Source of the DNA: a virus
DNA: 64,000 bases
Reading direction: 5' to 3' (one strand)
IMG/VR virus record: IMGVR_UViG_3300042864_000640
Location: 1 to 64,000 of that record
Shown: piece by piece, positions 51,602 through 59,992 of the stretch
Layout: every line of letters begins with the position of its first letter
How positions within the stretch are numbered: the stretch's first letter is position 1
Notes under the pieces: model-generated
Seen by the model: only the letters and a program-made list of their open reading frames with translations
Database searches by the model: none
What the model was told of the DNA's origin: nothing
Program-made: the position numbers and the translations under genes

Positions 51602-51795
51602 TAAAATTAAAAACTTTAATAAAAGAATCAGCTCAATCTGATAAATTGGCATCTGAAATAAATAGAGCAATATCCAGAATAGATGATTCGATGTCATATG
51701 TTGATTTTGCTCATGCAGTAGGAAAAGTATTAAAGGATGAATATGGTTCTCACAACTATGAACTATTTATTAAAGAATTAAGAAAAAAATTATAA
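51598..51795 (+). CDS. Small helical protein with a capsid-targeting-like N-terminus
   Basis: The 65-residue protein begins MIKLKTLIKESA, where I-K-E-S matches the prohead-protease rule, and is followed by IDDSMSYVDFAHAVGKVL. Overlaps both neighbours, so it is translationally coupled. Confidence 0.55.
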   Translation: MIKLKTLIKESAQSDKLASEINRAISRIDDSMSYVDFAHAVGKVLKDEYGSHNYELFIKELRKKL

Positions 51796-52535
51796 TGATA
51801 CGATTATCAGATTTATTGAATGAGGGTGTATATGACCCAGGTATCCTTAAATGTATATTTATGGCGGGTGGTCCTGGTAGTGGCAAATCTAAGGTAACCG
51901 AAGAAATATTTGGAATTGGTCACGGATTAAGTAGAGTAAACGCCGCCGGATTAAAGATTGTAAATTCGGATACTGCATTTGAAGCTCAATTAAAAAAGAG
52001 TGGTATTGATTCAAAAGATTTAGCAAGAATAGAGAAAGAAGAGCCTGAATTTTGGAAGAAAATAACAGAAGACCCTAAAGGTGTAAGAGAATTAGCTAAG
52101 CAAACTACTCAAAAAATTAAATCATTTTACGAAGAGGGTAGATTAGGAATGATTATTGATGGTACAGGCGATGATGTAGCTAAAATTCAAAAGCAAAAAC
52201 AAAGAGCCGAAGCATTGGGATATGATACCTTTATGGTATTTGTAAATACTTCATTAGAAGTAGCTCAATATAGAAACTCTATGAGAGATAGGGTATTGCC
52301 TGATAATTTATTAATATCGAGTTGGAAAGAATGCCAAAACAATTTGGGTAAATTCCAAACAATGTTTTCATCAGCTAATTTTCGTATTGTAGATAATAGT
52401 AAGAATGGAAATAATGTATCAAGTGATTGTAGAAAGCATGTTGATATGTTTGTAAACTCTGGCATTAAAAACGCAATTGGTAAAAAGTGGGTAACCACAC
52501 AATTGATGTTAAAAAATGCAAATATTATAAAATAA
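51795..52535 (+). CDS. Zeta-toxin-like P-loop kinase with a capsid-targeting-like N-terminus
   Basis: The 246-residue protein begins MIRLSDLLNEGVYDP, with an L-N-E-G site, followed by a P-loop (FMAGGPGSGKSKVTEEIFG near 22-40), IVNSDTAFE and GMIIDGTGDDVAK. The order is like zeta/PezT and related nucleotide kinases that use a small-molecule or peptidoglycan precursor. It could be packaged and injected with the DNA. Substrate unknown. Confidence 0.7.
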   Translation: MIRLSDLLNEGVYDPGILKCIFMAGGPGSGKSKVTEEIFGIGHGLSRVNAAGLKIVNSDTAFEAQLKKSGIDSKDLARIEKEEPEFWKKITEDPKGVRELAKQTTQKIKSFYEEGRLGMIIDGTGDDVAKIQKQKQRAEALGYDTFMVFVNTSLEVAQYRNSMRDRVLPDNLLISSWKECQNNLGKFQTMFSSANFRIVDNSKNGNNVSSDCRKHVDMFVNSGIKNAIGKKWVTTQLMLKNANIIK

Positions 52536-52588: not shown

Positions 52589-52973
52589 GGGGGTGCCTGG
52601 TTTTGACAGGTACGATGAGTTAGTGATTTGATGCAAGCCGGGTTAGATGGAAATCCGTAAATACCTATCGAACAATAAACGCAGAAGAATTATCTTCATT
52701 CACCTTCGAAGATGCTATGGCATTCGTAGGTGCTGATTACGCTGTAGCAGCCTAATCAAAACAATAGGGCCGGTGCACATACGCCTAGTAACAGAAGTGT
52801 TTACAAAGAGCTGGTTTTTGGTTCAGGCTCTAAAAGTTGAACCATCTAAGTTTAATAGTAGCAACGGGGAATTAGAAACTATTTATTTTGTTTGTTAAGA
52901 AAAACAAACTAAGCTTGTGAACGATGGTTATTAAATCCGTATTTGGACAAGGGTTCGACTCCCTTCACCTCCA
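52589..52973 (+). ncRNA. ssrA: tmRNA (transfer-messenger RNA)
   Basis: The 5' end GGGGGTGCCTGGTTTTGACA and the 3' end with TTCGACTCCC then CACCTCC-A form the tRNA-like half, with acceptor pairing GGGGGTG/CACCTCC. The tag frame runs from about GCA at 52681 to TAA at 52753-52755 and ends DYAVAA, the expected proteolysis signal. From that GCA the tag would have 24 residues. It rescues stalled ribosomes and marks products for degradation. The 3' CCA is not encoded. Confidence 0.93.
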
Positions 52974-52984
52974 CAAAAAAAATA

Positions 52985-53016
52985 TTTTGTATTTTGGATT
53001 TTTTTCCGTATATTTG
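52985..53016 (+). promoter_or_regulatory. Promoter for the initiator tRNA
   Basis: TTTTG at 52985-52989 and TATATTTG at 53009-53016 have 19-base spacing, 40 bases upstream of the tRNA. Confidence 0.55.
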
Positions 53017-53055
53017 TATATATATAAATACAACGTAAGTTCTTTAAAATTATAT

Positions 53056-53127
53056 CGTGGCGTAGAGCAGTGGTAGCTCGTTAGGCTCATAACCTAAAGG
53101 TCGGTGGTTCGAATCCATCCGCCGCAA
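53056..53127 (+). tRNA. Initiator tRNA-fMet (CAT)
   Basis: The cloverleaf has anticodon loop CTCATAA. Two initiator hallmarks are present: the first acceptor pair is a C-A mismatch (CGTGGCG against CGCCGCA), and the D stem carries A11-T24. Two of the three anticodon-stem G-C pairs are kept (TTAGG/CCTAA). It closely resembles E. coli tRNA-fMet. Phage initiator tRNAs are uncommon. CCA is not encoded. Confidence 0.88.
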
Positions 53128-53146
53128 CAAATCTACACTACTAGAA

Positions 53147-53407: not shown

Positions 53408-54360
53408 CAATAAGTTTGAAACTTATAGGTGATGAAAGATACTCGGTATTCAAACGAAGAAGTTCTTTAAATTATTGAAAAGATTATACATAGTAGATTC
53501 GTTCTACATAGTATAACAACGGCCGCCTATGGTCGTGAAATAAACTACGAAAGTAGGATAAAGTGATTGTATTGGTTAATACGATTGCGGCTACTCCCCC
53601 GTAAGGGAGATAAGCTTGAGTAGGCAAATGGGATATCATTGTGGCTTTGTATGTGAGGGTAACACTTTAGCAGAAGAGTTGGAATGACTGGGCAACCATA
53701 GATTGTTCAGTTGAGGTAGGAATACCAATAAGAATAACCCATAGGATTATTGTAAGAAGTAAGGACTTAATCTCTCCTTATCATTGCGTGATTCAATACC
53801 AAAGTGGTCTTAAAATCAAGCTATACGAAAGGTAGTAAGATAAGACTGTGTACGCGTGGTGGCGTTACTATCCTTCAATGTAGGACACCAATCCTTATTG
53901 ATGAAGATGACTTGAAGTATGGTGTTAGGGATAACACATCGGGTAGTTAAGTATTCTGTTGTTCAAAAGATAACGGAGCTTGTGGCAAACCACTACCTGA
54001 ATCCATCTATAAACCAAAACTCATTTTTGATAGGACATCAAAATCTTAAATTAAAAATAAGCATGAGTGTTTGCCAGTTTCAGACGAAAGGTGTGTACAT
54101 AGTAGGGAGTTGTTCCCTGCCACGATACCTTCGCAAGAGGTCTGTGATTCTACTGAAAGGTTTCTAATTCCGCAAGAACTAATCAGGCTGCGAGGCTTGA
54201 AGAAAATGATTAAGTAGAGAGTAGTTTGAAACTCTATGAGTGGTTGGCATTACTAACCCACATTGAATTGGTACATCTCAAAAGGATGTGGAAACGGAAG
54301 GAAACAAATAATCTTTCTAAAGCTGGTTCGCCGAAAGGAGTATTCTCATCCTTTTTTTTT
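53408..54360 (+). ncRNA. Large structured RNA, about 950 nt (GOLLD/ROOL-like candidate)
   Basis: There is no credible reading frame, but many local helices are seen. They are CTACTC/GAGTAG enclosing CTCCC/GGGAG near 53573-53615, ACGC/GCGT near 53850, AAGGTAGTAA against TTACTATCCTT, AGGGA/TCCCT near 54105 and ACCT/AGGT near 54128. It begins 1-10 bases after a promoter and ends with AAAAGGATG at 54280 pairing CATCCTTTT at 54347, then a T-run. Large RNAs called GOLLD and ROOL are known beside phage tRNA genes. Membership cannot be confirmed by eye. Confidence 0.65.
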
Positions 54361-54363
54361 ATA

Positions 54364-54434
54364 AGCGGTGTTAGTGTAACAGTAGCACACCTATCGTCCA
54401 GATAGGAGGAGGGGGGCAGCACCTTTCACCGCTC
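54364..54434 (+). tRNA. tRNA-like RNA 1 (degenerate, TCC anticodon position)
   Basis: Acceptor AGCGGTG/CACCGCT is perfect, D arm GTGT-AACAGTA-GCAC is normal, and anticodon stem CCTAT/ATAGG is perfect. However, the loop CGTCCAG lacks T33, and the T loop is GGCAGCA instead of TTCGAAT. The T stem (AGGGG/CCTTT) relies on G-T pairs. It is probably not a decoding tRNA. It lies directly after the large RNA's T-run. Confidence 0.55.
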
Positions 54435-54436
54435 TA

Positions 54437-54504
54437 AGTAATTTAATGAGGCTAGTATTAACCGGAGCATGACTTGACGTGGCGTATTTTGAAATTAAAT
54501 TACT
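54437..54504 (+). ncRNA. Stem-closed RNA element before the leader peptide
   Basis: AGTAATTTAAT at 54437-54447 is perfectly complementary to ATTAAATTACT at 54494-54504 (11 bp), enclosing a 46-nt G/C-richer region with short helices. It lies between tRNA-like RNA 1 and the leader frame. Family unknown. Confidence 0.5.
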
Positions 54505-54533
54505 ATATTTTAAATATTAGATATATATTAACA

Positions 54534-54626
54534 ATGAAAACATCTTTAACACATACGATTTATAGCCAACCGAATCTAATTTGGGAAGGCAGACGTGCGT
54601 TGTTAGAGGATACGGATGTAGGATAA
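54534..54626 (+). CDS. Leader peptide with codons matching the tRNA array
   Basis: The 30-codon frame starts with ATG at 54534 and stops with TAA at 54624; it contains THTIYSQPNLIWEGRR. The 16 codons at 54549-54596 (ACA, CAT, ACG, ATT, TAT, AGC, CAA, CCG, AAT, CTA, ATT, TGG, GAA, GGC, AGA, CGT) are all for amino acids served by tRNAs in the array that follows. GGC by a TCC anticodon would need extended wobble. Amino acids whose tRNAs are absent from the array (Ala, Cys, Lys, Phe, Val) do not occur in this run. The frame overlaps the antiterminator strand, as in classic attenuators. Translation is inferred, not shown. Confidence 0.55.
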   Translation: MKTSLTHTIYSQPNLIWEGRRALLEDTDVG

Positions 54627-54684
54627 AATGTAAATAACATTTAGATTATATAAACCCTCTAACAACAAAGTTAGGGGGTTTTTT
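54599..54684 (+). promoter_or_regulatory. Transcription attenuator of the tRNA array
   Basis: GTTGTTAGAGG at 54599-54609 is perfectly complementary to CCTCTAACAAC at 54656-54666 (11 bp antiterminator). The second strand alternatively pairs within CCCTCTAAC (54655-54663) and GTTAGGGGG (54670-54678), followed by a T-run: a strong terminator. The two structures exclude each other. A ribosome stalled in the upstream codons would leave the antiterminator free; full translation would block it. Confidence 0.7.
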
Positions 54685-54689
54685 GTTTT

Positions 54690-54761
54690 GGGGAATTAGC
54701 TCAGCGGTAGAGCAATAGACTGTTAATCTATTGGTCGATGGTTCGAATCCATCATTCCCCT
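54690..54761 (+). tRNA. tRNA-Asn (GTT)
   Basis: The cloverleaf has anticodon loop CTGTTAA and acceptor GGGGAAT/ATTCCCC. It starts 6 bases after the attenuator T-run as the first tRNA of the array. CCA is not encoded. Confidence 0.93.
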
Positions 54762-54778
54762 CATAGGTTCTTTGAAAT

Positions 54779-54850
54779 GCGAATATCGTATAATGGTCAT
54801 TACTCCTTCCTTCCAAGTAGGAGATGTAGGTTCGATTCCTACTATTCGCT
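54779..54850 (+). tRNA. tRNA-Gly (TCC)
   Basis: Loop CTTCCAA, acceptor GCGAATA/TATTCGC. The anticodon stem CCTTC/GTAGG has one T-T mismatch. Confidence 0.88.
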
Positions 54851-54856
54851 CAAATT

Positions 54857-54938
54857 GGGAGTATCGTATAGCGGCAATTACAACTGACTGTAAATCAGTT
54901 CTCATTCGAGTTCGGAGGTTCGAGTCCTTCTACTCTCA
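54857..54938 (+). tRNA. tRNA-Tyr (GTA)
   Basis: Loop CTGTAAA with a class II variable arm (CTCATTCGAG). Acceptor GGGAGTA/TACTCTC. Confidence 0.92.
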
Positions 54939-54940
54939 CA

Positions 54941-55014
54941 ACTCAAGTACCCATACCGCCAACGATGGGCTAAGTAAGATACAATTCCGATTGCGGGGAG
55001 TAGAATGCTTGAGA
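54941..55014 (+). ncRNA. Structured spacer between tRNA-Tyr and tRNA-Gln
   Basis: CTCAAG at about 54941 pairs with CTTGAG at about 55008, and CCCAT pairs with ATGGG inside. The 74-nt spacer therefore looks like a folded unit. It may be a processing guide or a decayed tRNA. Confidence 0.4.
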
Positions 55015-55018
55015 ATTT

Positions 55019-55089
55019 TGCCCGATGGTGTATCGGTAGCACAACTCCCTTTGACGGAGTTAGGGTTGGTTCGAATCCAGCTCGGGTAA
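55019..55089 (+). tRNA. tRNA-Gln (TTG)
   Basis: Loop CTTTGAC, acceptor TGCCCGA/TCGGGTA, D arm GTGTATCGGTAGCAC, as in bacterial tRNA-Gln. Confidence 0.92.
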
Positions 55090-55095
55090 CAATAT

Positions 55096-55170
55096 AGGGT
55101 AATGGGCCAATGGCTAGGCCGCTTGCTTTGGGAGCAAGACATCGTGAAGGTTCGAGTCCTTCTTACCCTA
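55096..55170 (+). tRNA. tRNA-Pro (TGG)
   Basis: Loop TTTGGGA, acceptor AGGGTAA/TTACCCT. All arms pair well. Confidence 0.92.
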
Positions 55171-55176
55171 CAATAT

Positions 55177-55250
55177 TGGTAATTAGCTCATTTGGTTAGA
55201 GCATCTCGCTGATACCGAGAAGGTGGCAGGTTCGAATCCCGCATTACCAA
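55177..55250 (+). tRNA. tRNA-Ile (GAT)
   Basis: Loop CTGATAC, anticodon stem TCTCG/CGAGA, acceptor TGGTAAT/ATTACCA. Confidence 0.93.
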
Positions 55251-55255
55251 CAAAC

Positions 55256-55326
55256 ATCTCTTTGGTGCAATGGTAGCATATCGGTCTCCAAAACCGCAGA
55301 TGGAAGTTCGAATCTTTCAGGGGGTG
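55256..55326 (+). tRNA. tRNA-Trp (CCA)
   Basis: Loop CTCCAAA with discriminator G. The acceptor ATCTCTT/AGGGGGT contains several G-T pairs, more than usual. Confidence 0.88.
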
Positions 55327-55331
55327 CAAAT

Positions 55332-55404
55332 AGTTCTATGGTGTAATTGGATAGCACCTTTCACTACGGATGAAAAAGTTAGGGTTCGAGTCCTTATGGA
55401 ACTA
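55332..55404 (+). tRNA. tRNA-Arg (ACG)
   Basis: Loop CTACGGA, stem TTTCA/TGAAA, acceptor AGTTCTA/TGGAACT. The A34 would need host TadA conversion to inosine. Confidence 0.9.
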
Positions 55405-55466
55405 CAATGTTCACAAATTTAGAGTGTTCACTATCGGTGAACAAACAAAAAAAGTGAACAACAAAT
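55405..55466 (+). repeat. TGTTCAC/GTGAACA repeats in a spacer
   Basis: Two TGTTCAC and two GTGAACA copies occur between tRNA-Arg and tRNA-His. One pair forms the hairpin TGTTCAC-TATCG-GTGAACA. Alternative pairings are possible. Confidence 0.4.
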
Positions 55467-55540
55467 GGTGTTTATAGTGTTAATGGTTAGCACGTCAGTT
55501 TGTGGTACTGATAGTATGGGTTCGAATCCCATTAATCACC
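55467..55540 (+). tRNA. tRNA-His (GTG)
   Basis: Loop TTGTGGT. An extra 5' G opposite the C73 discriminator marks His identity. One T-T mismatch lies in the acceptor GTGTTTA/TAATCAC. Confidence 0.9.
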
Positions 55541-55546
55541 CCCAAT

Positions 55547-55632
55547 AGAGAGTTACCCAAGTTGGTGAAGGGGCCTGTTTGCTAAACAGGTAGGATGTTA
55601 AAGTCGCGAGGGTTCGAGCCCCTCACTCTCTA
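55547..55632 (+). tRNA. tRNA-Ser (GCT)
   Basis: Class II tRNA with loop TTGCTAA and acceptor AGAGAGT/ACTCTCT. The long variable arm is intact. Confidence 0.92.
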
Positions 55633-55633
55633 C

Positions 55634-55774
55634 ATGAAAACAAATAAATTGGAATCTAATAGTCGAATAAATCGATTGATTAGAATCAGAAAAATTATAA
55701 AAGAAAATGGAGCTTGTTTAATATGTGTTAGACGTTGGAGTGGAAGCGTTAAAAGATATAGAACAAGTTGCTAA
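55634..55774 (+). CDS. Small basic protein between tRNAs
   Basis: The 46-residue frame starts 1 base after tRNA-Ser and stops 3 bases before tRNA-Leu. It contains SRINRLIRIRKIIKENGACL and three cysteines (C-LIC, then a final C). It may be a zinc-binding or RNA-binding peptide, or a decayed gene. Support is limited to its neat fit between tRNAs. Confidence 0.4.
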   Translation: MKTNKLESNSRINRLIRIRKIIKENGACLICVRRWSGSVKRYRTSC

Positions 55775-55777
55775 AAT

Positions 55778-55851
55778 ACCCGTATGGCGGAATTGGCATA
55801 CGCACTGGCTTTAGACCCCAGGTTTTGAAGGTTCGAATCCTTCTATGGGTA
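55778..55851 (+). tRNA. tRNA-Leu (TAG) lacking the long variable arm
   Basis: Loop TTTAGAC, acceptor ACCCGTA/TATGGGT, D arm typical of tRNA-Leu. The variable region is only about 5 nt (GTTTT), while leucine tRNAs normally carry a class II arm. One C-C mismatch sits in the anticodon stem. Confidence 0.82.
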
Positions 55852-55873
55852 CTGAAAAAAATATATAGAAATA

Positions 55874-55905
55874 GTTGTTATTATAAAAAACTTTCTGTAT
55901 ATTTG
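55874..55905 (+). promoter_or_regulatory. Bacteroidota-type promoter within the tRNA array
   Basis: GTTGT at 55874-55878 and TATATTTG at 55898-55905 have 19-base spacing, upstream of tRNA-Glu. It would give attenuator-independent expression of the second half of the array. Confidence 0.5.
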
Positions 55906-55930
55906 TATAAGTTCTTTGGAAGATAGAAAT

Positions 55931-56002
55931 GCTCGGTTGGACTAGGGGTTAGGTCACATCCCTTTCACGGATGTAGCACGGGTTCGAATCCCGTACCGAG
56001 TA
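55931..56002 (+). tRNA. tRNA-Glu (TTC)
   Basis: Loop CTTTCAC, stem CATCC/GGATG, acceptor GCTCGGT/ACCGAGT. Confidence 0.92.
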
Positions 56003-56004
56003 CA

Positions 56005-56073
56005 AAAAGTTCCGAGCTTTGCAAGGCTGAAGTAATGATGTACACATTACACGATAGGAAGGGAAACCTATCA
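56005..56073 (+). ncRNA. Triple-hairpin spacer
   Basis: Three consecutive hairpins are seen: AGCTT/AAGGCT, then GTAATG-ATGTACA-CATTAC, then GATAGG-AAGGGAAA-CCTATC. They fill the gap between tRNA-Glu and tRNA-Thr. Confidence 0.42.
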
Positions 56074-56076
56074 ATT

Positions 56077-56149
56077 GCCTCCTTAGCTCAGCAGGTAGAG
56101 CAACTGATTTGTAATCAGTAGGTCGTTGGTTCGATTCCGACAGGAGGCT
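56077..56149 (+). tRNA. tRNA-Thr (TGT)
   Basis: Loop TTTGTAA, stem ACTGA/TCAGT, acceptor GCCTCCT/AGGAGGC. Confidence 0.93.
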
Positions 56150-56153
56150 CAAT

Positions 56154-56227
56154 GGATTGTTGGTGAAGTTGGTTATCATGCTACCCTGTCACGGTAGAGT
56201 TCACGGGTTCGAGTCCCGTACAGTCCG
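56154..56227 (+). tRNA. tRNA-Asp (GTC)
   Basis: Loop CTGTCAC, stem CTACC/GGTAG, acceptor GGATTGT/ACAGTCC, discriminator G. Confidence 0.93.
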
Positions 56228-56231
56228 CAAT

Positions 56232-56305
<74 letters not shown>

Positions 56306-56327
56306 CGTTAAACTATAAAACAATATT

Positions 56328-56774
56328 ATGAAAAGAAATTGGATTTTTATAGCTATATTATGTTTTTTTCCGTATAATCTAATAACATCAGCTTCAGATA
56401 CAAAGAAGTTTGTTATACATACGGAAAAGAAAGTAAAAGTTAAAATTGCTGATGAGTTTGAAAAGATAGTAACCTTAACAACTTATTCTACTTCAGCAGA
56501 AGAAACGGATGATTCGCCAAACATTACCGCAAGTGGTTTTGAAATTGATGAAGATAATCCAAAAAAGCATAGAATTATAGCTGTTAGTAGAGATTTGAAA
56601 CGAAGGCTCAGATTTGGTGAAAAAGTAGTATTGAGTAATGCCGGAAGGTTTAATGGAGTTTGGTACGTTAGAGATTTAATGAATAGTAGATTTAAAAACA
56701 AAATCGATGTATTGATTAATCAGAATGAAAAACATACAAAATTGCATAAAGTAATTATAAAAAAGCTTGATTAA
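56328..56774 (+). CDS. Exported 3D-domain protein
   Basis: The 148-residue protein has an N-terminal hydrophobic signal or anchor (WIFIAILCFFPYNLI). Its C-terminal domain has DDSPNITASGFEID, HRIIAVSRDLKRRL, GRFNGVWYVRDLMNSRFKNK and IDVLI. The spaced aspartates match the 3D/double-psi-barrel domain of murein-processing proteins. A cell-wall role is expected. It is the only sizeable protein gene inside the tRNA array. Confidence 0.75.
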   Translation: MKRNWIFIAILCFFPYNLITSASDTKKFVIHTEKKVKVKIADEFEKIVTLTTYSTSAEETDDSPNITASGFEIDEDNPKKHRIIAVSRDLKRRLRFGEKVVLSNAGRFNGVWYVRDLMNSRFKNKIDVLINQNEKHTKLHKVIIKKLD

Positions 56775-56797
56775 TTCAAAACTTTTTTGTATATTTG
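56766..56797 (+). promoter_or_regulatory. Bacteroidota-type promoter
   Basis: CTTGA at 56766-56770 and TATATTTG at 56790-56797 have 19-base spacing, 18 bases before tRNA-Leu(TAA). Confidence 0.55.
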
Positions 56798-56814
56798 ATT
56801 TAGTTATTTGAAAT

Positions 56815-56899
56815 GCCGGAGTGGTGGAATGGTAGACACGAAAGACTTAAAATCTTTTGAGCAGAAACGCTCGTGTGGGTTCGACTCCCACCTCTGGTA
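56815..56899 (+). tRNA. tRNA-Leu (TAA)
   Basis: Class II tRNA with loop CTTAAAA, acceptor GCCGGAG/CTCTGGT and an intact long variable arm. Decodes TTA/TTG. Confidence 0.92.
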
Positions 56900-56901
56900 C
56901 A

Positions 56902-56993
56902 TTGTAATGATTCGGAAACGAATGACGGAACAGACGCTAAGAATGAAATGGAAACTAGGGCTTGCCCGGACACAAACCGTACAGACATTACAA
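56902..56993 (+). ncRNA. Compact structured RNA with tetraloops
   Basis: TTGTAATG at 56902-56909 pairs perfectly with CATTACAA at 56986-56993. Inside are ATTCG-GAAA-CGAAT (a GNRA tetraloop), ACGG/CCGT and GGG-CTTG-CCC (a CUUG-type tetraloop). It sits between tRNA-Leu and tRNA-like RNA 2. Family not recognised. Confidence 0.58.
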
Positions 56994-57001
56994 CCTTATA
57001 T

Positions 57002-57117
57002 GCCGGAGTGGCGGAATAAACAATGTAGATTGACGAATCACATTGAGACGTGCCTGATTCGAAGTGGTGCAGTGACCGAAAAGGACTGCGTGAAGTTAAT
57101 CAATACTTCCTCCGGCA
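57002..57117 (+). tRNA. tRNA-like RNA 2 (Leu-derived, expanded D arm)
   Basis: The acceptor GCCGGAG/CTCCGGC is perfect, and a GCAGTGACCG variable-arm segment recalls tRNA-Leu. The D loop holds an inserted hairpin (CAATGT-a-GATT with AATC-ACATTG), the anticodon region is enlarged (TGATTCGAAGT), and the T arm GAAGT-TAATCAAT-ACTTC lacks TTC. It probably does not decode. Confidence 0.55.
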
Positions 57118-57172
57118 CCTTATTATCGTTGAAAGAAACGATATTAGATTTTATCGTTAGATTAAACGATAT

Positions 57173-57246
57173 GGACTTGTAGCTCAGTTGGTTAGAGCGC
57201 CTGACTCATAATCAGTAGGTCCCTGGTTCGAGCCCAGGCTGGTCCA
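57173..57246 (+). tRNA. tRNA with CAT anticodon (elongator Met, or Ile2)
   Basis: Loop CTCATAA, acceptor GGACTTG/CTGGTCC with one T-T mismatch, and a G1-C72 pair, so it is not an initiator. Whether it is Met or lysidine-modified Ile cannot be decided by eye. Confidence 0.85.
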
Positions 57247-57258
57247 CTTAAATGTAAA

Positions 57259-57789
57259 ATGATGAGAAGAAAAATAATATTCATAGATGTAGATGGTCCT
57301 TTGGCTTGGGCAACATGGGATGATGGTTGGGTAACTATTAATGAAGATTCTACCAAAGAATTTGGAATACCATATGCTTGGGTTAAAGAAGATTGTGAGG
57401 CACTACAAAAGATATGCAATGAAACAAACGCTGAGTTAGTAGTTAGTTCAGATTGGAAGATGCACTTTTCATTTTTACAACTGAAACAAATATTTCTACA
57501 CTATGGTATTACTGCCAGAGTATTGGATATAACCACACATCAAAATTTGTGGAATAAGATGAGTAGAACATCTTTAGAACATGAGAGAGCATTGCAAATT
57601 GCTAAATGGGCTAAAGATAATAAAATATCTAATTGGATAGCAATTGATGATTTAAAATTATCAGACCCGTTCAAATGGATGAAGCCTCGTATTCCAATGT
57701 GGAGACATGTATCGGTAGATGGCGACCACGGATATGGCGGGAGATTGCGAGATAAGGTCGATGAGTGTATTGAAAAATTAAATAGATGA
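57259..57789 (+). CDS. HAD-family phosphatase of an RNA-repair-like operon
   Basis: The 176-residue protein has motif I as IFIDVDGPLAWATWD and a AELVVSSDWK motif II, with WIAIDDLKLSD as motif IV. The form fits HAD domains associated with RNA-repair (Swiss-army-knife) proteins. It could remove a 3' or cyclic phosphate. First gene of a run of four overlapping or closely spaced genes, 12 bases after a tRNA. Confidence 0.72.
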   Translation: MMRRKIIFIDVDGPLAWATWDDGWVTINEDSTKEFGIPYAWVKEDCEALQKICNETNAELVVSSDWKMHFSFLQLKQIFLHYGITARVLDITTHQNLWNKMSRTSLEHERALQIAKWAKDNKISNWIAIDDLKLSDPFKWMKPRIPMWRHVSVDGDHGYGGRLRDKVDECIEKLNR

Positions 57790-58439
57790 AACTAAATTTA
57801 AATAAAGGACAGAGGTTATGGTTTACAAGTGATACCCACTATAACCATGCCAATATATGTTCATCTACAACTCAATGGTTAGACCCCGTAACAATAAGAG
57901 AGTTTAAATCATTAGAGCATATGAACGCCCACCTTGTTGGTAACATCAACGAATTGGTCGGACAAGATGATATTCTATTTCATTTAGGTGATTGGAGTTT
58001 TGGTGGGTTTGAACAAATACAAAAGTTCAGAGACCAAATCGTATGTAAGAATGTTCATCTAATATTAGGTAATCACGACCATCACATTGCTAATAACAAA
58101 GATGGTATTCAATCCTTATTCAGTTCAATAAACAAATATTTGGATTTGATTGTGAAGTATAATGTGGGTACTCCATTGCAGGGTGAAGCTCGTTTTGCTT
58201 TAATGCACTTTCCAATAGCAAGTTGGGATAATATGGCTAGAGGAGCAATCCATTTACATGGACACGTTCACTTTAATCCATCAATGAGATTACAACAAGG
58301 TAAGATGATGGATGTGGGATGTGAAGGAAATAACTTATACCCAATTGATATGAGTGAAATATTATCCATTATGAGAGATAGACCTGTAAAAAGTTTGTTT
58401 AGTAAAGACCATCACGAAATAGTTGAAAATTATAGATAA
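57786..58439 (+). CDS. Metallophosphoesterase
   Basis: The 217-residue protein has FTSDTHYNHANI, FHLGDWSFGG, LILGNHDHH, LMHFPIASWD and LHGHVHFNP, the calcineurin-type metal ligands in order. It could act as a nuclease or 2',3'-cyclic phosphodiesterase preparing RNA ends. Overlaps the previous gene by 4 bases and the next by 1. Confidence 0.88.
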   Translation: MKLNLNKGQRLWFTSDTHYNHANICSSTTQWLDPVTIREFKSLEHMNAHLVGNINELVGQDDILFHLGDWSFGGFEQIQKFRDQIVCKNVHLILGNHDHHIANNKDGIQSLFSSINKYLDLIVKYNVGTPLQGEARFALMHFPIASWDNMARGAIHLHGHVHFNPSMRLQQGKMMDVGCEGNNLYPIDMSEILSIMRDRPVKSLFSKDHHEIVENYR

Positions 58440-58852
58440 TGAATAAGATATTAACATTAGTAAGAGGATTGCCAGGAAGTGGTAAATCAACATTCGCCAA
58501 TTTTATTTGGAATGATTACGCAATATGTGAAGCTGATAAGTTTTTCTACGATAAAGAAGGAAACTACAACTATGATGGAACAAAGATAACGCAGGCACAT
58601 AAATGGTGTAGAGAGCAAGTGGAAACTCGTATGAAAGATAACGAAGCTAATCCACAATTCTATCCTGAAATTGTAGTATCAAATACATTCACAAAGGAAT
58701 GGGAGATGGCTGAATACTTTGATTTAGCTAAAAAATATGGCTATACTGTATTCACTATTATAGTAGAGAATAGACATGGTGGAGTAAATCAGCACGGAGT
58801 TCCTGCTGAAAAAATAGAACAAATGAAAAATAGATTTGAAGTAAAATTATAG
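58439..58852 (+). CDS. P-loop kinase, polynucleotide-kinase-like
   Basis: The 137-residue protein has Walker A LVRGLPGSGKSTFAN near residues 7-21, CEADKFFYD with a base-type acidic residue, and VVSNTFTKEWEM. It is like small RNA/DNA 5'-kinase domains (N4BP2/Pnkp group). It could phosphorylate 5'-OH ends produced by anticodon nucleases. Confidence 0.82.
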   Translation: MNKILTLVRGLPGSGKSTFANFIWNDYAICEADKFFYDKEGNYNYDGTKITQAHKWCREQVETRMKDNEANPQFYPEIVVSNTFTKEWEMAEYFDLAKKYGYTVFTIIVENRHGGVNQHGVPAEKIEQMKNRFEVKL

Positions 58853-58855
58853 AAT

Positions 58856-59992
58856 ATGGAAAATAATAATTCAGTTTGCTATATGGCAACAATCAATGAA
58901 ATCAAACCAATTGAAGGAGCTGATAACATTGAATTAGCAGTAGTTGGTGGTTGGAATTGTATTGCCCAAAAGGGTGTACAAAAAGTAGGCGATGTAGTTA
59001 TCATTGCTACAACTGATGCCGTTATACCGGAAGCCTTATCCGATGAAATAGGAGTAACTAGCTATCTTCGTAAAGGTGGTAGAGTTAGGACTGTAAAGTT
59101 AAGAGGTACATATTCAGAATGTTTAATCATTCCAGATAAATACTTACATGGTAGAGCTACTATCGGAGATTGGGATTTGAAAGATGGTTCTGATTGTATG
59201 CACATCTTTAATATCTTTAAATATGAGCCACCTGTTAAGATGGTTCAGCTATCGAATGGTAAGAAGATTCGTTATCAAACAAATCCAAACTTCCACGTTT
59301 ACTATAAGTTTCCTAACTTAAAGAATGTGCCGGATATGTTTACCGAAGAAGATGAAGTAGAAATTACTCGTAAAATTCACGGAACAAATGCAAGATATGG
59401 TATTATCAAAAAGATTAGATTATCATTTTGGGATAATGTTAAGGACTTCTTTGGATTTGGTGATAAATGGAATTGGTACGAATTCGTAGTTGGTTCACAT
59501 AATGTAGAGAAGGGCTCTGATTCTAATGGATTCTATGATACAAATGTTTGGTATGATATTGAAAAGAAATATGATATCAAAAATAAATTGTGGGAGTATG
59601 TTAAATCCGGTGCAGATATCGGCGATGGTATTACCTTATATGGTGAGATTTACGGCGCCGGAATTCAAAAGGGATATGATTATGGGTTGAAGGATATTGA
59701 GTTCGTAGGATTCGATGTAAAGGAGAATGGTGAGTATTTAAGTCCTAATGTAGCTAACTTACAAATTTCTGAAGTATTGGGATTACCATATGTTGATGTT
59801 TTACATTTTGGTAATTGGTCACAAGAAGTACAAGATAAATATGTATTCAATAATTTCATTCCAAATACAAAAGTGCCAGAGGAAGGAATTGTAATCAAAC
59901 ATTATACAGGTGTTAGGGAGAAGGTAGCAAAAGTTATCAATCCCGATTATTTAATCTTCGCTGAAAAACATAACGTTGGCGATTCGCATTAA
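58856..59992 (+). CDS. RNA ligase with an N-terminal OB-like domain (DraRnl type)
   Basis: The 378-residue protein has an N-terminal tRNA-binding/OB-like part (ATINEIKPIEGADNIELA). The adenylyltransferase motifs follow: motif I KIHGTN near residue 173 with the nucleophilic lysine, LYGEIYG near 261 (motif III), EEGIVIK near 342 (motif IV) and KVINPDYL (motif V). It seals RNA nicks. Its position after three end-processing genes and the tRNA array strongly suggests tRNA repair. Confidence 0.9.
   Translation: MENNNSVCYMATINEIKPIEGADNIELAVVGGWNCIAQKGVQKVGDVVIIATTDAVIPEALSDEIGVTSYLRKGGRVRTVKLRGTYSECLIIPDKYLHGRATIGDWDLKDGSDCMHIFNIFKYEPPVKMVQLSNGKKIRYQTNPNFHVYYKFPNLKNVPDMFTEEDEVEITRKIHGTNARYGIIKKIRLSFWDNVKDFFGFGDKWNWYEFVVGSHNVEKGSDSNGFYDTNVWYDIEKKYDIKNKLWEYVKSGADIGDGITLYGEIYGAGIQKGYDYGLKDIEFVGFDVKENGEYLSPNVANLQISEVLGLPYVDVLHFGNWSQEVQDKYVFNNFIPNTKVPEEGIVIKHYTGVREKVAKVINPDYLIFAEKHNVGDSH

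Follow-up and report, generated by a model that had tools for sequence, protein, structure and literature searches.

The region immediately upstream of the tRNA gene array in the analysed stretch of viral DNA (64,000 nucleotides, hereafter the window) is likely a ribosome-mediated transcription attenuator that reads tRNA supply and controls the phage tRNA array, probably together with RNA-repair genes further downstream. When a tRNA is missing, the ribosome would probably stall on a short leader, and the replacement tRNAs would be switched on. An array-controlling attenuator sampling many tRNAs had been proposed by a sequence-only reading of the window, and this proposal is now supported by conservation in related phages, by compensatory changes and, in the leader family to which the window belongs (family A), by the match between leader codons and array. 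The computational evidence is strong for the anatomy of the locus, its conservation, the compensatory change of its strands, the selection on its codon set and the covariation of codons and array in family A; stalling, readthrough and the polarity of the switch would follow from this architecture. The elements of the locus are the following.

54534..54626, plus strand: leader open reading frame (ORF) of 30 codons, MKTSLTHTIYSQPNLIWEGRRALLEDTDVG; homologous leaders precede the arrays of 28 further distinct variants of family A
54544..54552 (about), plus strand: segment 1, pairing with segment 2 when the ribosome is absent (MFE fold)
54549..54596, plus strand: sensing run of 16 codons, T H T I Y S Q P N L I W E G R R, addressing 14 tRNA species, every one of them encoded in the array
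54599..54609, plus strand: segment 2, the 5' strand of the antiterminator, GTTGTTAGAGG, a perfect complement of CCTCTAACAAC
54656..54666, plus strand: segment 3, which serves as 3' strand of the antiterminator as well as 5' arm of the terminator, CCTCTAACAAC, in an 11-bp pairing
54652..54687, plus strand: intrinsic terminator, consisting of the 3:4 hairpin (54652-54681, 12-bp stem) and a T-rich tail with a T-run
54690..56306, plus strand: array of 15 tRNA genes, in the order Asn, Gly, Tyr, Gln, Pro, Ile, Trp, Arg, His, Ser, Leu, Glu, Thr, Asp, Arg

The coordinates of the 30-codon frame were verified on the sequence, as was the claim that 16 successive codons are all served by array tRNAs. The run is decodable throughout, and random draws from the phage's own codon usage gave the same full decodability with 14 species at P = 1.6e-5; among 16,150 stretches of 16 codons in the long ORFs of the window, none matched this property. 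Ala, Cys, Lys, Phe and Val, reported as missing from the run, are indeed absent from it, but Lys, Ala and Val occur elsewhere in the ORF (codons 2, 22 and 29, respectively). The Ala and Val codons lie at or beyond segment 2, so a stall there cannot matter; Lys at codon 2 is an exception, being upstream and having no array tRNA. Folding of the nascent RNA with a 12-base leading edge of the ribosome placed the loss of sensing at codons 20-22. Substitution counts by codon position showed neither the ordinary purifying pattern nor ordinary protein constraint, and we therefore infer translation from the open frame and the kept codon set.

The pairing elements were also found as described. The perfect 11-bp complementarity of 54599-54609 with 54656-54666 was verified, and the terminator hairpin lies ahead of the array with its stem at 54652-54681 and the first array gene, tRNA-Asn, starting 8 bases on at 54690. 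It is the sole terminator detected by a scan of positions 53500-57500. The 157-base leader folds at -43.5 kcal/mol, compared with a mean of -24.9 kcal/mol for shuffled sequences (z -5.5, 0/200 shuffles as good). Its MFE fold contains the terminator and a helix joining the start of the ORF to segment 2, and this 1:2 helix, not listed in the sequence-only reading, completes the trp-type layout of 1:2, 2:3 and 3:4 helices. In ribosome-free nascent RNA ending at segment 3, the 2:3 pairing was the minimum.

In the proposed mechanism, the ribosome translating the leader would need nearly every tRNA species that the array supplies. With all tRNAs present, it would reach the stop codon beside segment 2 and hinder the 2:3 pairing, so that the 3:4 terminator would halt transcription short of the first tRNA gene. 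Scarcity of any single charged tRNA would stop the ribosome upstream and leave segment 2 free; the 2:3 antiterminator would then form and the array would be transcribed. When no translation takes place, the 1:2 helix would sequester segment 2 and termination would be favoured.

Relatives were collected by searching IMG/VR with the RNA ligase and kinase adjacent to the locus and with DNA patterns, which yielded many contigs of related large phages, after which the regions upstream of arrays were inspected. This gave 58 distinct leaders before tRNA arrays, falling into four families (A to D) without mutual sequence similarity. Family A comprises 29 distinct leaders, mostly beginning MKTL(T/N)LHT, before arrays that start with Asn or have seemingly lost it. 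The 24 distinct leaders of family B have 44-51 codons (e.g., MKAQQNIHQLNLTAQRAISIWSDSLCGDVIVGFTYNNEPKQGGTEV) and their arrays are Ser-first, while the four of family C (e.g., MQAIQQHIIFMEQPVLTTGSPICASYRNNGDWKHYGSFETKLVNMS) precede Cys-first arrays; family D has one leader, MQRIGQHIENMNLWFSVKPYGACDRSRALKLIIS. An intrinsic terminator between the leader and the first tRNA gene is present in relatives as well, and hairpin, frame and codon set are retained together.

In all 21 family A leaders examined, the 2:3 stem has 7-11 bp and the 3:4 stem 12-16 bp. Segment 1 was examined in family A alone, where the 1:2 duplex amounts to -7 to -14 kcal/mol in 21/21 leaders. Compensatory changes were found in both helices, with coordinated substitutions of all three strands in several lineages of family A (GTTAGAGG/CCTCTAAC/GTTAGGGG, GTTAGGGG/CCCCTAAC/GTTAGGGG and GTTAAGGG/CCCTTAAC/GTTAAGGG) and family B (CCGAG/CTCGG/TCGAG, CCGGG/CCCGG/TCGGG and GATTTGGG/CCCAAATC/GATTTGGG), and own duplexes outscore almost all other-family arms. 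In family C, where the hairpin was missed by the terminator script and the pairing was read by eye, GGTTCTTTTGAA within the leader can pair over 12 positions, including one G-U, with TTCAAAAGGACC at the terminator.

The position of the stop codon bears on the polarity of the switch. In family A it lies about 14 bases 3' of segment 2, a distance that is near-constant across leaders with the different tails LEDTDVG, LEEASGW, LEDIILG and LRDINKG. A terminating ribosome thus covers only the last few bases of segment 2, and the off state would then rely on kinetics. This geometry leaves some room for later 2:3 pairing and would suit an opposite polarity, in which a ribosome at the end of the leader opens the terminator and the array is made only with all tRNAs present. 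We consider this arrangement improbable. In family B, the stop codon finishes 4-6 bases after segment 2 does, and a terminating ribosome would cover this segment fully; moreover, folding of the nascent RNA gave full 2:3 pairing only with ribosomes upstream of segment 2, and such a switch would add tRNAs when none is missing.

Nearly all long leaders (38-53 codons) contain 19-20 amino acid kinds despite sequence drift, and across the four unrelated families such sets of 19-20 kinds fit into 34-53 codons. In family A, 19/29 leaders have all 20 kinds and 4/29 have 19, and the remaining six, with 15-18 kinds, are short (29-30 codons) and belong to phages whose arrays are reduced; in family B, 20/24 leaders have all 20. 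The chance of all 20 kinds is 0.5-5% for a single long leader, and in several leaders the full set is complete within 33-39 codons (P 0.0008-0.005 each). When residues were permuted within alignment columns, the number of kinds fell from the observed 19.93 to 19.16 in family A leaders of 39 or more codons (0/5,000 shuffles) and from 19.83 to 19.47 in family B (0/10,000), family C being too uniform for this test. Selection therefore retains the set, not the sequence, in families A and B. The residues that complete the set can move: Cys is found at codon 10 or near codon 17 in family A, and in family B His is found in NIHQ, or in LNH where NIHQ reads NIQQ. In a prospective check with a pattern made from the first eight codons only, every new family A leader followed by a tRNA array had 19-20 kinds; matches without a following array were short or unrelated frames.

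The ORF could also encode a small functional protein, with the hairpin merely terminating a transcript from upstream and the match to the array arising by chance. The ORF is conserved, and terminators can precede arrays without such a leader, as in Tenacibaculum phage Gundel_1 and in huge phages. However, the four leader sequences are unrelated and have in common only the codon-set property and their position, the peptide varies freely while the set is retained, segment 2 inside the ORF tracks the terminator arm, and family A and B leaders have no Pfam match. The upstream transcript in question would be that of the GOLLD RNA, which lies in the window with a second structured element.

53939..54352, plus strand: GOLLD RNA, conserved 3' domain (RF02032, 301 bits, full model length)
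54362..54436, plus strand: degenerate tRNA-like fold lying between GOLLD and the leader; it has an acceptor-like stem, its anticodon and T arms are odd, and ARAGORN does not call it as a tRNA

GOLLD is present as a single copy directly upstream of the leader in 21/21 other family A records; eight records from families B-D yielded none. It is thus linked to family A and not needed for the leader, and the small-protein explanation appears highly improbable. GOLLD RNA has been described near tRNA islands (PMC12286853); here it precedes the leader in all family A records examined, yet is a separate RNA. Other elements also occur in this part of the genome. In place of the degenerate fold, L086 has a real tRNA-Gly(tcc) between GOLLD and the leader. 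The gap between GOLLD and the leader holds a conserved block in most of family A (54448-54500, ACCRGAGCATGACTTG...GTATTTTGAA, flanked by complementary AT-rich arms), which is absent in L223, L225, L227, L230, L232 and L097. Upstream of GOLLD, a phage tmRNA (tag AEELSSFTFEDAMAFVGADYAVAA) is followed by a tRNA-Met (52589-53128), an order common to several relatives. A Zeta-toxin/AAA_33-like kinase (51795-52535) adjoins the tmRNA, and many environmental phages have relatives of it, frequently at different loci.

We then compared codon sets with arrays. In 24 leaders of family A that are followed by at least 3.4 kb of sequence, the codon species found ahead of the last ten codons were scored against the tRNA species of the array. 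Leader and array agreed in 473/528 cells, compared with a mean of 414 and a maximum of 455 in permutations (0/20,000 reaching the observed value); short leaders are scattered on the GOLLD tree, so leaders and arrays may have travelled together as single modules, in which case independent co-changes are fewer than these counts and the permutation values do not stand for independent events. Ala codons occur in 18/18 leaders whose array has the tRNA and in 0/6 of the others; the corresponding figures are 21/21 and 0/3 for Cys, 21/21 and 0/3 for Tyr, and 17/17 and 1/7 for Val. Agreement was near-complete or held for the most part for Val, Phe, Lys and Leu-UUR. In the six short leaders, the observed pairing of leaders and arrays was the best of all 720 assignments. 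Relative to that of L216, the leader of L217 has lost the codons for Ile (ATT to AAT and GGT) and AGY-Ser (AGT to AAC), and the L217 array lacks the Ile and AGY-Ser tRNAs that are both present in the L216 array. L095 has neither AGY/UCN Ser codons nor Ser tRNAs, on a contig that ends soon after. Agreement peaked for a sensing zone ending about 9 bases 5' of segment 2, which is where a stalled ribosome starts to cover segment 2, as its footprint predicts; nascent-RNA folding gave the same boundary. There are exceptions in family A, namely codons that the phage's own array cannot serve in L219 and L230, and His in L215/L216; in addition, one array-supplied kind is missing from each of several long leaders.

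The expectation that the codons of a leader would match its array thus held in family A and failed in families B and C, where the leaders contain nearly all 20 kinds even where ARAGORN finds no such array tRNA. In these two families the leader is a general sensor, and matching to the array is not a general rule. This would suit a role of the same attenuator in general amino acid starvation or slow translation, tRNAs being made whenever translation slows, rather than in tRNA cleavage; ribosome-mediated attenuators respond to charged tRNA, to which an uncharged and an absent tRNA look alike. We regard starvation as a possible but rather unlikely natural signal. The codon set of family A shrinks with the array, and sensing only those species that can be replaced suits tRNA supply better than amino acid supply. 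The genes downstream of the array also speak against it.

56815, 57173 and 60992: further tRNAs beyond the array, Leu-TAA, Met and Ser-TGA, respectively
57259..59992, plus strand: RNA-repair cassette 3' of the array, with a HAD_SAK_2 phosphatase, a metallophosphoesterase, an AAA_33 kinase and an RNA ligase

The metallophosphoesterase scored just below the Pfam cut-off. Among 12 related records, HAD_SAK_2 was found in nine and the RNA ligase in seven. Pnkp and Rnl1 of phage T4 are established menders of cleaved tRNA. The cassette appears to be the kind of set that mends cleaved tRNA, which fits a locus dedicated to tRNA damage, and array and repair genes would be carried on one transcript. Host tRNA cleavage by anticodon nucleases is a plausible usual trigger. 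We favour, with modest confidence, a function of the locus as an alarm for the whole tRNA pool: one leader would test nearly every tRNA in a single pass, the destruction of any of them by host defence would release the replacement array and the repair cassette, and the codon set would evolve to match the array.

Ribosome-mediated attenuation is classical, and ilv leaders sense up to three amino acids. Like the trp-type attenuators, including these multivalent leaders, the locus has a short leader ORF, mutually exclusive 1:2, 2:3 and 3:4 helices, an intrinsic terminator before the first gene and, in family A, codons that correspond to what the controlled genes make. Unlike them, it reads about 14 tRNA species (all 20 amino acids in relatives), mostly by one or two codons each instead of runs, it controls tRNA genes and not biosynthetic enzymes, it is found in phages, and its codon set covaries with the tRNA array. 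Leader-peptide attenuation has been described upstream of amino acid operons in Flavobacterium (PMC9723704). T-box leaders also sense tRNA charging and switch a terminator, but they bind the tRNA directly without translation, whereas sensing here would go through codons; an Rfam gathering scan of the whole window gave no T-box family match and detected only GOLLD, tmRNA and tRNAs. Phage tRNA arrays have been described as counter-defence against tRNA-cleaving systems (PMC10264068, PMC11555353). The phage tRNAs would likewise replace host tRNAs here; those papers mention no attenuation or leader control, and what we propose is a regulatory switch. No description of a leader-controlled phage tRNA array was found in a literature search mostly outside subscription papers. 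The locus would represent a known type of switch with a new input, the tRNA pool, and a new output, the tRNA array. It has long been asked why phages have tRNA arrays and when these are expressed; to this question the locus would bring a direct link from tRNA loss to array expression. If the proposal is true, sensing by attenuation is not limited to one to three amino acids but can extend to the whole tRNA pool, and the locus provides a natural genetic readout for tRNA-targeting immunity.

Searches for the locus outside environmental records gave no match: tblastn of family A and B leaders against cultured phages (even at E = 10), GOLLD DNA against cultured phages, and the pattern of the leader tail in 84,980 bacterial and archaeal genomes. 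Accordingly, neither a cultured host nor a close relative is known. Microcystis phage Mel-JY01, which has one tRNA only, carries the nearest cultured DNA polymerase (49% identity). A leader of this kind is absent before the tRNA clusters of the huge phages LR756501 and LR745206, of Tenacibaculum phage Gundel_1 and of phage PAU. Some huge phages have several tRNAs for one amino acid, with five for Leu in L234 (6385-6855) and three for Thr in L239 (12280-12433), in contrast to the one-per-species arrays of the leader-bearing phages.
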